Part shown: positions 477-9,441 of the stretch, one piece after another
Layout: every line of letters begins with the position of its first letter
Position numbering within the stretch: position 1 is the stretch's first letter
Assembly (NCBI GenBank): GCA_016932965.1
Contig: JAFGBW010000295.1
Span: 1-9,441, forward strand
From: Candidatus Auribacterota bacterium
Lineage (GTDB): Bacteria; Auribacterota; JAFGBW01
Direction of reading: 5' to 3'
DNA length: 9,441 nt
The notes under the pieces: generated by a model
Told to the model about the DNA's origin: nothing
What the model saw: only the letters and a program-made list of their open reading frames with translations
Database searches by the model: none
Made by a program: the position numbers and the translations under genes

Positions 477-1022
477 ATGATACCTAAAAAAGTTTTTTTT
501 ACCAATGGTTGCGGAATCCATAAGGATAAACTGTCTTCATTCGAACGCGCACTAAGGGATGCGGGAATAGAAAAATGCAATCTGGTGTATGTTTCCAGCA
601 TATTGCCCCCATTGTGCAGGATCATATCAAAGAAAGAGGGAATCCGCCGTCTCAAACCGGGACAAATCACTTTTTGCGTCATGGCAAAAACGGAGTCCAA
701 TGAGCCAAACAGACTCATTTCTTCTGCCATTGGAGTCGCCACCCCCAAAGACGAAAAAAATTACGGATATCTCTCCGAGCATCATGCCTATGGCGAGACT
801 GGAAAATTCACAGGAGAATATGCAGAGGACCTGGCTGCAACCATGCTTGCCACAACCTTGGGCATTCCATTTGATTCCAACCTTGCCTGGCACGAACGCG
901 AACAGGTTTACAAGGCAAGCGGGCATATTTTCAAGACAAAAAACATTACGCACTCAGCACGGGTCCATAAACAGGGTTTATGGACAACGGTTTTAGCCGC
1001 AGCCGTATTTATCCTGGATTAA
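477..1022 (+). CDS. Pyruvoyl-dependent arginine decarboxylase (proenzyme)
   Basis: Converts arginine to agmatine and CO2 using a covalent pyruvoyl group in place of pyridoxal phosphate. Agmatine usually feeds putrescine and spermidine synthesis, or acts in arginine-dependent acid resistance. The 181-residue protein is close to the 165-residue archaeal enzyme. The self-cleavage site is plain: [11 protein letters not shown] at residues 35-45 matches NLIRISSIMPP of the Methanocaldococcus jannaschii enzyme. Cleavage between Ser40 and Ser41 would give a short beta chain and an alpha chain starting with the pyruvoyl group made from Ser41. Asn35 matches the archaeal Asn47, and Glu101 in [10 protein letters not shown] aligns with the catalytic Glu109. 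The block AIGVATPKD (84-92) is also conserved. The ATG at 477 follows AAAGGA (463-468) with 8 nt spacing. bioB starts 12 nt downstream. Histidine or aspartate decarboxylase activity is less likely from these motifs. Bacterial members are related to chlamydial AaxB, but the physiological role here is unknown. Confidence 0.92.
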
Positions 1023-1034
1023 AACGATTCGGCC

Positions 1035-2015
1035 ATGGATATTCAGCCTCTTATACAAAACTGTTATGATATATTGAAAGGCAGAGAACTCTCCTTCAGA
1101 GATGCCCTGAAACTGATCCAGACTCCTCCCCCCTTTACCATGGATTTATATTCTCTCGCCAACAAGGTGAGAGAAAAATTTTCACGTGGATTTCATGTCT
1201 GCTCCATCCTGAACGCGAAAAGCGGAAAATGCGGAGAAGACTGTTTTTTTTGTGCACAGTCATCCTTCAATAAAGGGGCCATCCGCTCCTATCCTCTGAT
1301 GAGTGCGCAAAAACTTGTTGAGGAGGCGGCAAAAGTCAAATCTTATCCGGCAGCGGCTTTTTCCATTGTCACGAGCGGATATGGCTATCAAAAAAGGACT
1401 CGAGAGTTTCAGTCCCTGTTAAATTCGATTGAAAAAATCAAAAATCAAGTCAAAATCAACGTTCATGTGTCTATCGGGGTGCTGAGCGAAGAAAATATCC
1501 GACTTTTAAAGGAAGCGGGGGTGGACAGGATCCATCATAATATTGAAACAGCCCCTTCCTTTTTTTCAAAAATCTGCAAGACTCATGACATCCAGGACAG
1601 GTTCAAAACCATTCGGAACATAAAAAAACAGAAAGTGCCGGTCTGTTGCGGAGGCATTCTGGGCCTTGGCGAAAACAGGAAACAGCGGATCGAATTCTTT
1701 TACACCCTCAAGGACCTGGATGTGGATTCGATTCCCATCAATATTTTTCAAAAACTCGAAGGAACACGAATCAGAACATCCGGGATAACCGTCACAGAAA
1801 TCTTGAATGCCGTTGCTGTTTGCCGTTTGATCAATCCAGGGAAAACGATCATCATGGCTGCGGGGAGGGAAACGATTTTAAAAGATTACCAGGGGCTTAT
1901 TTTCCATGCTGGAGCAAACGGAATGATGACCGGCGGATATCTTACTTTAAAGGGCAGACCCGTGGAAGAGGACCGTAATCTGCTGGATTCTTTTCCTCGG
2001 TGTCCTCCGTTGTGA
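1035..2015 (+). CDS. bioB: Biotin synthase BioB, with non-canonical auxiliary-cluster ligands
   Basis: Radical SAM enzyme that inserts sulfur into dethiobiotin, the last step of biotin synthesis, in the cytoplasm. The 326 residues match the family length. The radical SAM cluster motif CGEDCFFC gives Cys66, Cys70 and Cys73. Other BioB blocks are HHNIETA (167-173, for E. coli NHNLDTS), CCGGILGLGE (204-213), SIPIN (232-236), AAGRE (275-279), HAGANGMMTGG (291-301) and the C-terminal EEDRNLLDSF. The E. coli [2Fe-2S] ligands Cys97, Cys128, Cys188 and Arg260 align by eye with Ser110, His144, Cys204 and Ile273, so only one is kept. Extra cysteines (Cys56, Cys181, Cys205, Cys263) could hold a different auxiliary cluster. 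The start ATG lies 12 nt after the arginine decarboxylase stop, and no strong Shine-Dalgarno is seen. This suggests operon expression with translation coupled to the upstream gene. No other biotin gene is in the window. Another radical SAM function of the BioB family is the main alternative. Confidence 0.9.
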   Translation: MDIQPLIQNCYDILKGRELSFRDALKLIQTPPPFTMDLYSLANKVREKFSRGFHVCSILNAKSGKCGEDCFFCAQSSFNKGAIRSYPLMSAQKLVEEAAKVKSYPAAAFSIVTSGYGYQKRTREFQSLLNSIEKIKNQVKINVHVSIGVLSEENIRLLKEAGVDRIHHNIETAPSFFSKICKTHDIQDRFKTIRNIKKQKVPVCCGGILGLGENRKQRIEFFYTLKDLDVDSIPINIFQKLEGTRIRTSGITVTEILNAVAVCRLINPGKTIIMAAGRETILKDYQGLIFHAGANGMMTGGYLTLKGRPVEEDRNLLDSFPRCPPL

Positions 2016-3882: not shown

Positions 3883-4353
3883 TCACCGGGATGCATCCGG
3901 GTTTTTTGATAACAACTGCAGGACATATTGTTCTGTCAGTTTAAAAATACCCGGACATTTGCTTTCCCTGGGACCCGCCACATTCAGGACTGAAATGCAG
4001 TTATTCCGGATCCAGCTGTATATTTTTCTGTTAAGGCATTGATCCACCTTTGCGATCATGACCGGTTTGCCGTGTTTCTCTGCCAGGCATTTTGTAAGAA
4101 GTGTTCCCCCCTCCAGATCAAAATCAGTGCATAAAATGAGCGTTCCATCGGATTCCAGGACATTTTTTTCAGTACGCTCGGCATAATCACTGGAAGAAAG
4201 CTCGGTCAGTTCATACTTTACTGGTATGATGCCGTCTTCGCATATTCTGCCTTCAGGACAGAATCCCCCTCTTTCAACATGCATCTTGAGTGCTGCCTCA
4301 AGCGCCCCCTGATCGACTCCTGTCTGCCCTCCGCTGATTATTTTCTTAATCAT
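3883..4353 (-). CDS. Putative molybdenum-carrier family protein (Rossmann-type)
   Basis: A 156-residue cytoplasmic protein with no signal peptide or membrane segment. Its pattern fits the putative molybdenum carrier family, related to the LOG/DprA/YpsA Rossmann-like superfamily. The N-terminal IISGGQTGVDQGAL (5-18) is the hallmark glycine-rich loop after the first strand. It is followed by GGFCPEGR (29-36), a TELSSSDYAERTEKNVLESD segment (about 50-69), TLIL (71-74), EGGTLLT (81-87) and LNVAGPRESKCPGI (123-136). In this family the name comes from similarity to an algal molybdenum cofactor carrier protein. Cofactor binding has not been shown for most bacterial members, so nucleotide or ADP-ribose-like ligands are also possible. 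The ATG at 4353 has no clear Shine-Dalgarno (the leader is A/T-rich). It precedes rpsA by 113 nt on the same strand. No molybdopterin synthesis gene is nearby to support the name. Confidence 0.75.
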   Translation of the reverse strand: MIKKIISGGQTGVDQGALEAALKMHVERGGFCPEGRICEDGIIPVKYELTELSSSDYAERTEKNVLESDGTLILCTDFDLEGGTLLTKCLAEKHGKPVMIAKVDQCLNRKIYSWIRNNCISVLNVAGPRESKCPGIFKLTEQYVLQLLSKNPDASR

Positions 4354-4814: not shown

Positions 4815-5228
4815 TCACACCAGCCTCTCCAATTCTAAAAGTGTGATCATTCCGGATTGCAATTTAACCACACCGCGAATGGCTTCCCTTTTAATCCCCG
4901 TTCCTTCATACTCCAGTATCTGCTCCTCCTCCACACGGATGACGCCGTTCACCCTGTCCACAATGAATCCTATCAATTCTCCGCTCATTTCAAGAATAAT
5001 AATACGGCATTTATTGTTTAAAGATACATCCGTTCCTGCAATACTCAGACGTTTTCTCAAATTGATAATGGGAACAATGATGCCGCGCAGATTCGTGATT
5101 CCTTCGAAATAGAAAGGGGCATTGGGAACCGGGGTGATGGGCATCCGCCGGTTGATCTCTTTCATCCGGGACATGTCAAAACCGAACTTCTGCTGTTCTA
5201 CTTCAAAAAGAATCAGCTGCATAATCAC
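4815..5228 (-). CDS. cheW: Chemotaxis coupling protein CheW
   Basis: Scaffold protein that links the kinase CheA to receptor tips in chemotaxis arrays at the inner membrane. At 137 residues it is a single CheW domain with nothing attached. Family landmarks are [20 protein letters not shown] at the N-terminus, [20 protein letters not shown] (about 33-52) with the conserved NLRG turn, PIINLRKRL (53-61), [14 protein letters not shown] (86-99) and the C-terminal [20 protein letters not shown]. The proposed start is GTG at 5228, which overlaps the upstream receptor stop codon as GTGA. An ATG two codons in (5222) is an equally possible start. The overlap implies translational coupling with the receptor gene. 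It is the last gene of the cheA-mcp-mcp-cheW run; a gap with two hairpins follows. Confidence 0.95.
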
Positions 5229-6769
5229 CTGTACCAGCTCAACAGGCGATTCATGTCGTTTTCCAGTGTTTCCAGGCTGTCGGATACGGCCTGGATGGAG
5301 GATGAACTGTTTGAAATCAATTCCGTGGCGGAACGTCCGTCCTCCAGGGACTGGTTCACCCGTTCAAGTGCCAAATCCTGGGCCTCTAGCATTTCGACAA
5401 CACGATTAGTCACTTTTTGCATATCCAGAACCACTTCCGTGATCAGCTGGGAATTTTCATATTGCTGTTTCGTGGCTATTGCCACTGCGCTGGTCAAATC
5501 CTTCATGGTGGAAACCGACTGAATGATCTGTCTGCTGGCACTCCCCTGTTCGGAAGTTCTTTGATTGATCTGGGAAACCAGACGGTTCACATGGCCGATG
5601 GCTTCAACAATCCCCTGAAGGGATTTTCCGGCATTATCAGCCATGACCACGCCTGATTTAACCAGTTTATTCCCTCTGTCAACAGATTGAATCACACGTT
5701 TGATATCCAACTGGATGCTGGTGATCATCTTCGTGATTTCCTTGGTGGCGCTGGAGGTCTTCTGAGCGAGTTTCTTGATTTCGGAAGCAACGATGGCAAA
5801 GCCCTTGCCGTGTTCTCCTGCACGCGACGCCTCGATCGCCGCGTTCAAAGCAAGAAGATTCGTCTGGTCCGCGATGTCGTCAATGGTGGCAGTGATTTTA
5901 CCGATCTCATTCGACCGTTTACCCAATTCTCCCATCGTATGGGAAAATTCCGCCATGCTTCCTGAAATCTGGGTGATGGCTCCAATGACATCATTAACTA
6001 CCTTGCCCCCTTCCACGGCCGAATTCGCGGCTTTCCTCGCGTGAACGCTGGAATTATCGACATTCTGTCCCACTTCTCCTATGGAAATCGCCATCTGCTC
6101 GATTGAAACAGAAGCGGCTTCCACGAAATTCCCCATATTCTGGGCGTCTCCATCCACCTTGGCAATGCTTTTCTCCATCACCTGGACAGAATAAACCGTA
6201 TTTCCCACTGAAACCATAAGAGACTGGATCTCATAGGATATTTTATCCATCACGGATTTGACGTGTTTCATGAATTCAGAAACACGATTCATGAAATCGG
6301 ACTCTCTTCCTGTTCCCTTTTCAAGCTGAAAAAGGATCTCCTTTAAAAATATCCTTTTTTTCTCGATCCGGGAGCGCGTTTCTTCAATTTCCTTCAGATG
6401 AACCGACTGTTTTGACAGGATGATGTCCAGAATCTTTTCCAGATTCTTCACTTCGGTTCCGCTTCTGCTCTCTGTAGCAAATGTGATCCCGCTGTCCCCT
6501 TCACTGATACGGATGAGTTTAGGCCCCAGCTCATCGAGGCCGTGAACCATCTTGTGAAAAGAATAATACAGGATCACCATCACGAAAACTTGGCCGGCAA
6601 AAAAGAAAATCGTGATTTCCTTGAGGTTGAATTTTCCGAAAAATGAAAAATAGATCAAAAAGAGAAGATCGAAACCGATTAAACTGGCAAGAACCAGCGT
6701 TGAAAGCTTTTCTTTCAACGCGATCTTATCCCATTGAGTGGGTGACGGAAAATGAATCTTATCTATCAT
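5225..6769 (-). CDS. Methyl-accepting chemotaxis protein lacking a periplasmic domain (second receptor)
   Basis: A 514-residue inner-membrane chemoreceptor that should control CheA through CheW. Two hydrophobic helices lie at about 22-44 and 52-72, joined by only a few residues (KFNLKE), so there is almost no extracellular sensor. A HAMP-like segment follows (about 73-121), then a long helical region rich in heptads. The signalling hairpin tip is at about 285-330: [20 protein letters not shown] (289-308), then [17 protein letters not shown]. Compared with the consensus [18 protein letters not shown], the tip has several conservative changes: Ser for Ala, His for Gln, Lys for Arg, Ser for Asp. 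No CheR-docking pentapeptide is seen at the C-terminus (ends LLSWYR). The ATG at 6769 overlaps the upstream receptor stop as ATGA, with no strong Shine-Dalgarno, suggesting coupled translation. The stimulus is unknown; membrane state or a cytoplasmic signal is likeliest. Confidence 0.93.
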
Positions 6770-8214
6770 TGGACAAAATGTTCTTTGACATGCTTTAGAA
6801 GAGAGTCCTGATTTTGTATGGCACTGGTCAAGTTCCCTAAGATGGCGGGGACCGACACCGCCATCTTTTTGAACTGGATCATATTTTCCTTTAATTTCAC
6901 AAGGTTATCAGAAATGAGCGTTGTTTCATCCGTGATCTGTGAGCTCTTTTTCATCTGGATCTCATTTTCCATTTTCAGGGAATGGCTGTTTTCCTTCAGG
7001 TTGGTGAGAATGGATGACAAAGAGCTGGATGTCTTTTCCTGTTTGTCAACGGAAAGCGCGATATTTTCCATGAGGGTTTTTGTTTCCTCAATGGCATCGG
7101 CAATTTGTTTTAAAACAGTTTGTGATTCGTCCGCCAGAATGACCCCTTTTTCCACATCCTTCATGCCCTGTTCCATGGACAGGACCACCTCATTGATTTC
7201 CGTCTGCATGGTGGAAATCGTGTTGGCGATCTCCTTGGTCGCCTTGGTGGTTCTTTCAGCCAGTTTTCTCACTTCATCAGCTACGACGGCAAATCCCCTT
7301 CCCTGCTCTCCGGCTCTGGCAGCTTCGATTGCAGCGTTCAGCGCCAGAAGATTCGTCTGATCCGCGATTTCATCAATCGTCTGAATGATCTCACCGATTT
7401 CAACGGAGGATTTCCCCAAATTGGAAATAGAAGTGGAATTTTCTTTGACCGATACGGCGATCCGGTTCATGCCTTCCACGGTCTTCGAAAAAACCCGGCC
7501 CCCTTCTCCGGCCACATCGACTGCTTTGGCCGAATGGCTTTTTGCCTGCTTGACCAGATCCAGCTCCCCATGGATTCCGGAGGAAAGTTCCTCAAGAAGG
7601 GAATGCGTGGATGTCACGGCATTGACCATATCCTGGGATTTCAGCTGGGATTCATCCCCGATTTTCATGATGTCGCGGGACGTGTTGGAAAATTTCCCCA
7701 TGTTGGTCTGGATCTGGTTCAGGCATTCGTTAACGGACTCCACGACAACTGAAAACGGTTCCATGCTTTTTAATAAATCAGAAGACAGACTCTCGCATTT
7801 GGTTTGAATATTTTCGATATCCTCGAGATACTTTTCAAGAAGATTTTGCTGTTCCTCCTTCTTCTGGATCTGGCCGGTAAGATCCTTGAACTTTTCGGCA
7901 AAGACATTCAACAGGGAATTCAAACCGTTTTCAATCTCAGACAATTCATCCTTGTGTTGTATGAGGATGCCCTTTGAAAAGTGATGACGGGAAATGTCTC
8001 CGATCAAACGGGAAAGTTCCGACAGCCTTTCTGAAAATTCCCTCGTTTCCCATTTCCCGATCATAAAGAGAATGATCATCCCTGCCAAAGCCGCCAGCAG
8101 AAAAATCACGAGCAGCGGTATCTTTAAATGAAGAAGGCCCCAGATCAAAAACAATAATCCGAACCAGGATAAGACCGCCAGAATCTGATATCGTTTCAAT
8201 ATTGCTACACCCAC
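6766..8214 (-). CDS. Methyl-accepting chemotaxis protein lacking a periplasmic domain (first receptor)
   Basis: A 482-residue inner-membrane chemoreceptor. Two hydrophobic helices at about 10-30 and 33-53 are separated by only a short turn (about HLKIP), so it has no periplasmic ligand domain. A HAMP-like stretch follows (about 54-106) and a coiled coil with a charged [15 protein letters not shown] segment near 118-132. The signalling tip is fully canonical: [20 protein letters not shown] (263-282), [20 protein letters not shown] (283-302). No CheR-binding pentapeptide is seen at the C-terminus (KHVKEHFVQ). The start is GTG at 8214, chosen because GGGAGGA (8227-8221 read on the minus strand) lies 6 nt upstream. 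It is a diverged paralogue of the next gene: the tips align closely, but the membrane segments and outer helices do not. Its stop overlaps the next receptor start as ATGA. The cheA stop lies 12 nt upstream. Confidence 0.93.
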
Positions 8215-8220
8215 GATGAT

Positions 8221-8227
8221 TCCTCCC
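8221..8227 (-). promoter_or_regulatory. Shine-Dalgarno deciding the GTG start of the first receptor
   Basis: Read on the minus strand, GGGAGGA ends 6 nt before GTG at 8214. Its first base is the last base of the cheA TAG stop codon. The short distance suggests ribosomes ending on cheA can restart on the receptor gene. Confidence 0.75.
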
Positions 8228-9441
8228 TAATTTTTAATTAAATGATCAATATCAATAATCAATGACAAGCGGCCGTCTCCCATGATCGTGCACCCGGAAA
8301 AGCCTTGCACACCTGACAGAAAATGGGTCAGGGACTTGATCACGATCTCCTCCTGTTCTATGAGATAATCCACCATGATTCCGCGAAGCATTTCAGCCAG
8401 ACCAACGATGACAATGTAAACCCAATTATTTTTTTCATCAAGATTTTCCAACATGGCCTCATTTTTTTGCCCAGATGAAACCGGAGCATTTTTTTCCTCC
8501 AGATTATAAATCTCCTTCAAGGAAAGCAAAGGAACCGCTCTCCCCCTGAATTCCATGACCGGCTTTCCGTCAATGTAGGAGATATCTTTGCTTGAAATAC
8601 GTATCGATTCCACGACAGAAGTCAGCGGCAACGCAAAAACATGCTCTGATACTGAAATGAGCAGCACCTGAATGATGGCAAGGGTCAAGGGGAGTTTCAG
8701 CTTAATGGATGATCCCTCATTCAATTCCGTGGAGATTTCAATAATGCCCTTCAGCTGGCTGACCTTATTTTTGACCACATCCATTCCCACCCCCCTGCCG
8801 GACAAGTCCGTCACCCGGTCTGCGGTACTGAATCCGGGCAGAAATATGAGATCCAGAATGTCCCGCTTGGACATTTGTCTTGCCTTCTCCGAGGTAATCA
8901 ACCCCTGCCTGATGGCCTTGTCGCGGATTTTTTCAACGGAAATGCCTCGTCCATCGTCCTGGATCTCAATGATGATCTGGTTACCCTGGTGCGAGGCGCT
9001 CAGATGAATATGACCATATCTTGTCTTGCCTTTGGTCACTCTTTCATCGGGAGATTCAAGCCCGTGGTCCATCGCGTTTCTCAATAAATGAATGAGGGGA
9101 TCTCCGATTTCTTCAATGATGGTTTTATCCAGCTCTGTCTCCTCGCCGCTGATCTGAAACCGGACTTCTTTTCCGGTCTGTTTTTCGAGTTCCCGCATCA
9201 GCCGCTGGAATTTAGAGAATACTTTCGAGATAGGGAGCATTCTTGTTTTCATGACGCCGTTCTGAAGCTCGGCTGCGTTGAAAGCAATCTGATGGATCGC
9301 ATCAGACATTGCGGAATTGATGCTTTCCGGCAATATTTCCTGTTCCTGCATTTTCCGATGAAGCTGAATCAGCCGGTTGCGGCAGAGCACCAGCTCTCCA
9401 ACATAATTCATCAGATTATCAAGACGCTGGACATCCACACG
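8227..9441 (-). CDS. cheA: Chemotaxis histidine kinase CheA, C-terminal part (5' end cut by window edge)
   Basis: Kinase that phosphorylates CheY and CheB in response to receptor state. The visible 404 codons cover the dimerisation, ATP-binding and regulatory domains; the N-terminal Hpt (P1) and P2 domains lie outside the window. Numbering from the GTG at 9438, the P3 dimerisation helices start at DVQRLDNLMNYVGELVL (2-18). The ATPase N-box is DPLIHLLRNAMDHGLE (113-128) with Asn121 and His125. The G1 box is QDDGRGIS (160-167), and the GFSTADRVTDLSGRGVGMDV segment holding the G2 box lies at about 202-221. The P5 CheW-like domain runs from about 262 to the end. An extra polar linker at about 302-328 interrupts P5. 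The GTG at 9438 is almost surely an internal Val: the preceding codon is Arg and matches the usual VDxxRLD context. It is the first visible gene of the cheA-mcp-mcp-cheW run. Confidence 0.96.
   Translation of the reverse strand, partial: RVDVQRLDNLMNYVGELVLCRNRLIQLHRKMQEQEILPESINSAMSDAIHQIAFNAAELQNGVMKTRMLPISKVFSKFQRLMRELEKQTGKEVRFQISGEETELDKTIIEEIGDPLIHLLRNAMDHGLESPDERVTKGKTRYGHIHLSASHQGNQIIIEIQDDGRGISVEKIRDKAIRQGLITSEKARQMSKRDILDLIFLPGFSTADRVTDLSGRGVGMDVVKNKVSQLKGIIEISTELNEGSSIKLKLPLTLAIIQVLLISVSEHVFALPLTSVVESIRISSKDISYIDGKPVMEFRGRAVPLLSLKEIYNLEEKNAPVSSGQKNEAMLENLDEKNNWVYIVIVGLAEMLRGIMVDYLIEQEEIVIKSLTHFLSGVQGFSGCTIMGDGRLSLIIDIDHLIKN

Follow-up and report, generated by a model that had tools for sequence, protein, structure and literature searches.

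We propose that the bioB gene of a Candidatus Auribacterota bacterium encodes a functional biotin synthase of type II, whose four-iron auxiliary cluster would be bound by Cys56, Cys181 and Cys204, with His144 replacing the usual fourth cysteine. Judged from sequence comparisons, this reading was given a probability of about 0.58. The gene lies in a window of 9,441 nucleotides, the contig JAFGBW010000295.1 of a single draft genome in 300 contigs (assembly GCA_016932965.1). Biotin synthase inserts sulfur into vitamin B7, and how the enzyme supplies and renews this sulfur is a long-standing argument. In this class of enzymes, SAM is cleaved, hydrogen is removed from C9 and then from C6, and the sulfur comes from the auxiliary cluster. 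In the Auribacterota protein, the [4Fe-4S] cluster on Cys66, Cys70 and Cys73 would cleave SAM, and the resulting 5'-deoxyadenosyl radical would abstract hydrogen from dethiobiotin at the same two carbons in turn. The sulfur donor would be the auxiliary four-iron cluster inside the barrel (4Fe-5S in the class), held by the three cysteines named above and by His144 as an iron ligand.

Class assignment and alignment of the Auribacterota BioB

The bioB open reading frame begins with ATG, and its coordinates include the stop codon (Table 1). Its product matches the BioB equivalog model TIGR00433 over the full length with 343.1 bits, for a cut-off of 225, and contains both the PF04055 (Radical_SAM) and PF06968 (BATS) domains. 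The closest solved structure is a type II enzyme, both by sequence and by fold. Searches with phmmer gave 249 bits against Veillonella parvula 8vdw, 175 bits against Blautia obeum 8vcw and 140 bits against E. coli 1r30, and comparison of the predicted model (mean pLDDT 94) with the same three structures gave Z scores of 47.9, 44.2 and 39.5. From their deposited titles and release dates, we take 8vdw and 8vcw to be the type II 4Fe-5S enzymes reportedly described by Lachowicz et al. 2024. Cysteines 56 and 181 are common to both of them and to the window protein, and E. coli has neither. A first reading of the DNA, made from the sequence alone (hereafter the sequence-only reading), had suggested a type II enzyme. 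This was borne out: the closest solved enzymes are of this type and cysteines 56, 181 and 204 are all carried. The Auribacterota BioB is thus a type II biotin synthase, a class already described with its 4Fe-5S auxiliary cluster (PMC11138216, PMC11099021). By analogy with that class, the protein would be expected to carry the same cluster type and to share its sulfur chemistry.

Table 1. Coordinates in the window of bioB, its upstream neighbor and the codons discussed in the text. Counts refer to the 203 aligned proteins.
Feature	Position	Strand	Basis or occurrence
Pyruvoyl-dependent arginine decarboxylase gene	477..1022	+	NF009064, 221 bits (cut-off 207); PF01862
bioB, type II biotin synthase, 326 aa	1035..2015	+	TIGR00433; Radical_SAM and BATS domains; closest solved structure 8vdw
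Cys56, type II-specific cysteine on strand beta-1 (Ser in E. coli)	1200..1202	+	Alignment
CxxxCxxC, Cys66/70/73, radical SAM [4Fe-4S] ligands	1230..1253	+	Invariant, 203/203
Ala108, site of the alternative Cys in relatives that lack a 144 ligand	1356..1358	+	Cys in 42/203
Ser110 (E. coli Cys97)	1362..1364	+	S 86, G 81, C 32 of 203
His144 (E. coli Cys128), proposed auxiliary-cluster ligand, codon CAT	1464..1466	+	Sole His among 203
Cys181, type II cysteine in (I/V)C(T/S)TH motif	1575..1577	+	Cys in 180/203, also in 8vdw and 8vcw
Cys204 (E. coli Cys188), auxiliary-cluster ligand common to both types	1644..1646	+	Invariant, 203/203
Ile273 (E. coli Arg260)	1851..1853	+	R 75, I 38, K 38, M 18 of 203

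The protein was aligned to the solved chains with HMMER and to its relatives with MAFFT. The resulting set of 203 proteins comprised the window protein, the two solved type II enzymes, E. coli BioB and a further 199 loci, of which four phyla supplied most. Cys56 was found in 202 of them, E. coli being the sole exception. Named organisms bear out this signature only in part: both Cys56 and Cys181 are present in BioB of Selenomonas, Parabacteroides and Eubacterium eligens; Ilyobacter has Cys56 without Cys181, and Mammaliicoccus and Tsukamurella have neither. Cys144 is present in both solved type II enzymes but does not define the class, being absent from 56 other aligned relatives. We also observed a type II-like group with Val or Thr in place of Cys181, yet with Cys56, Cys144 and Cys204 (L051, L056, L057, L059, L061, L072, L081, L085, L087, L098, L174, L181, L187 and others).

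The sequence-only reading had started from the claim that three of the four canonical [2Fe-2S] ligands are lacking. HMMER and MAFFT agreed in placing Ser110 on E. coli C97, His144 on C128, Cys204 on C188 and Ile273 on R260; neither Cys nor Arg, named beforehand as a possible refutation, was placed at positions 110, 144 or 273. The protein therefore does not carry the type I ligand set (C97, C128, C188, R260). The residues had been read correctly but their oddity was overstated, as Ser110 and Ile273 are ordinary in this class (Table 1). The radical SAM motif retains its cysteines 66, 70 and 73, and the additional cysteines at 56, 181, 205 and 263 are all present as described. Their proposed role in binding a different auxiliary cluster is plausible for Cys56 and Cys181, which are the type II signature. 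It is unlikely for the other two. Cys205 is a common neighbor of Cys204, found in 77 of the 203 proteins regardless of the residue at 144, and Cys263 occurs in the window protein only, in a helix of the model (253-266), at a site that is F, Y, L or M in relatives.

Position 144 and the ligands of the auxiliary cluster

What remains unusual is His144, already singled out from the sequence alone: none of the relatives compared has histidine at this position. The residue at 144 is C in 146 proteins, S in 23, G in 14, D in 14, A in 5 and H in 1. The placement of this column is firm because the spacing around it is fixed, the distance between residue 144 and the HN(L/I)E motif being identical in 200 of the 203 proteins. 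An error of sequencing or assembly that hides the usual residue at 144 is highly improbable. The genome is a draft and the only one in its family, but going from Cys to His (codon CAT) takes two base changes, the frame is otherwise undamaged and the conserved columns are intact.

We then considered how position 144 varies with the other cysteines. Among the variable cysteine columns, the most strongly correlated pair was Cys108/Cys144 (r -0.82), position 108 preceding the column of E. coli C97 by two residues. Residue 144 is S, G or A in each of the 42 proteins with Cys108, and C, D or H in each of the 161 proteins without it. In a tree of 133 proteins from which the trait columns were left out, the Cys108 state switches at least four times; the independent supported pairs that test the swap numbered only three, all in the same direction (p 0.25), which is too few for significance. 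Given the swap and its repeated changes on the tree, residue 144 is probably a ligand, and the simplest reading of the alignment is that this role can move to a nearby cysteine on a barrel strand. The Cys108/Cys144 variation may already have been described in the 2024 type II paper. One Cys108-type bioB (L005, G046:C20:7076-8583) has bioD directly downstream, which supports a biotin synthase function for that variant. Among the 14 proteins with Asp144 (L194, L198, L211, L201, L206, L217 and eight others), 8 display a second apparent relocation of the ligand: they have Cys232, which occurs in no other aligned protein.

The Auribacterota BioB has no Cys at 108, 110, 145 or 232, and His144 is therefore the best candidate for the ligand role. 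The substitution pattern makes it a probable ligand to an iron of the auxiliary cluster. Being neutral, a histidine in this role would be expected to raise the potential and the lability of the cluster. This agrees with what has been proposed for non-cysteine ligands, as the lability of donor clusters is thought to be tied to Arg in E. coli BioB and to Ser in LipA (PMC11138216).

At least three cysteines are kept at the eight candidate positions in every one of the 203 proteins, and a cluster held by three cysteines with an open iron is therefore a serious rival. Under this reading, the enzyme is still a type II BioB, its cluster is bound by Cys56, Cys181 and Cys204 only, the fourth iron bears the inserted sulfide and His144 acts from the second shell as a hydrogen-bond or proton donor. 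Three protein ligands are enough for a 4Fe-5S cluster that carries a ligated sulfide. Eighteen of the 203 proteins, including the window protein and E. coli, have just three cysteines at these positions, so a fourth protein ligand may be dispensable; 13 relatives are reduced to three through the absence of Cys181, and L194, L198 and L211 have Asp144 without a replacement cysteine. However, a small non-binding residue is found at 144 only alongside Cys108, an indication that this site calls for a side chain able to bind metal. We regard the three-cysteine cluster as the less likely of the two, and favor ligation by His144.

Genes corresponding to a DNA pattern for His144 were sought in two phyla, and no match was found in the 395 and 148 genomes searched. 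At the thresholds used, BioB was detected in 269 of the 395 genomes and in 124 of the 148. The pattern matches the window and, once codon 144 is freed, 173 of the 199 fetched bioB loci, corresponding to a sensitivity of about 87%, so that about one in eight such genes would be missed. The survey covers these two phyla, other phyla and above all Firmicutes being hardly sampled, and there is no second genome in the family of the window organism.

Genomic environment and constraint on bioB

The genome holds one BioB only. A second candidate was discarded, as this other match is the maturase HydE (308 bits), which suggests an anaerobic metabolism of the host. BioA (539 bits), BioD (166 bits) and BirA (183 bits) are encoded in the same genome, away from bioB and above their curated cut-offs, so that dethiobiotin-making genes are present in the host through bioA and bioD. 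BioF gave no confident match in the genome; a match at C106 is below the cut-off, lies beside genes judged by eye to be UbiA-like and ketoacyl-synthase-like, and was rejected as doubtful. Judged from gene content, BioA, BioD, BirA and HydE are consistent with an active biotin synthase in an anaerobically metabolizing organism. The protein also looks to be under constraint: at 56 columns that are at least 90% conserved it has 4 departures, for a median of 3, with 4 in V. parvula and 7 in B. obeum.

These data bear on whether the gene could instead be a BioB paralogue with lost or altered function. Its branch is long (1.46), it departs from conserved residues at G200, L238 and P240, and it is located apart from bioA and bioD. 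Nevertheless, it is the sole BioB of a genome with bioA, bioD and birA, and its number of departures at conserved columns is ordinary, which makes such a paralogue very unlikely.

In the window, bioB follows the arginine decarboxylase gene after a gap of 12 bases, and the two are probably co-transcribed. Elsewhere in the window, a cpYpsA protein (circularly permuted YpsA, SLOG) is encoded at 3883-4353 on the minus strand, between rpsA and a chemotaxis cluster. One run on the same strand (4815-9441) encodes CheA, CheW and a pair of proteins that each contain an MCP signalling domain.

Comparison with known biotin synthases

The closest solved enzymes, V. parvula 8vdw and B. obeum 8vcw (39% and 33% identity), share with the window protein the fold, Cys56, Cys181, Cys204, the radical SAM motif and Ser110. 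The window protein departs from them in having His rather than Cys at 144, Ile rather than Arg at 273 and Ala rather than Arg at 108. The type I enzyme of E. coli (1r30, 28-29% identity) has the same fold and radical SAM motif and one of its four [2Fe-2S] ligands in common (Cys188/Cys204), whereas the window protein lacks Cys97, Cys128 and Arg260 and has Cys56 and Cys181. The Asp144 relatives, such as L194, L198 and L211, resemble it in having the type II cysteines, in lacking Cys108 and in carrying at 144 a metal-binding residue other than cysteine. They differ by having Asp rather than His and, in 8 of the 11 others, by Cys232. BioB of Haloferax larsenii (L230), an aerobe, likewise has Cys56, Cys204 and a non-cysteine residue (Asp) at 144, but lacks Cys181 and has Arg at 273; it also lacks the E. 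coli-type C97, and fits cleanly into neither BioB type.

Natural variants in which residue 144 is Cys, Asp or His, or in which the cysteine has moved to 108, would make the effect of the ligand testable by simple swaps. The chances are about even that this is the first biotin synthase with a histidine-ligated sacrificial sulfur-donor cluster, and that the fourth ligand of type II enzymes shifts between Cys144, Cys108, His144 and Asp144, the last either accompanied by Cys232 or not. Compared with about 200 relatives, only His144 stands out, as a probable and slightly new way of holding the sulfur-donor cluster in what is otherwise an ordinary-looking type II BioB.
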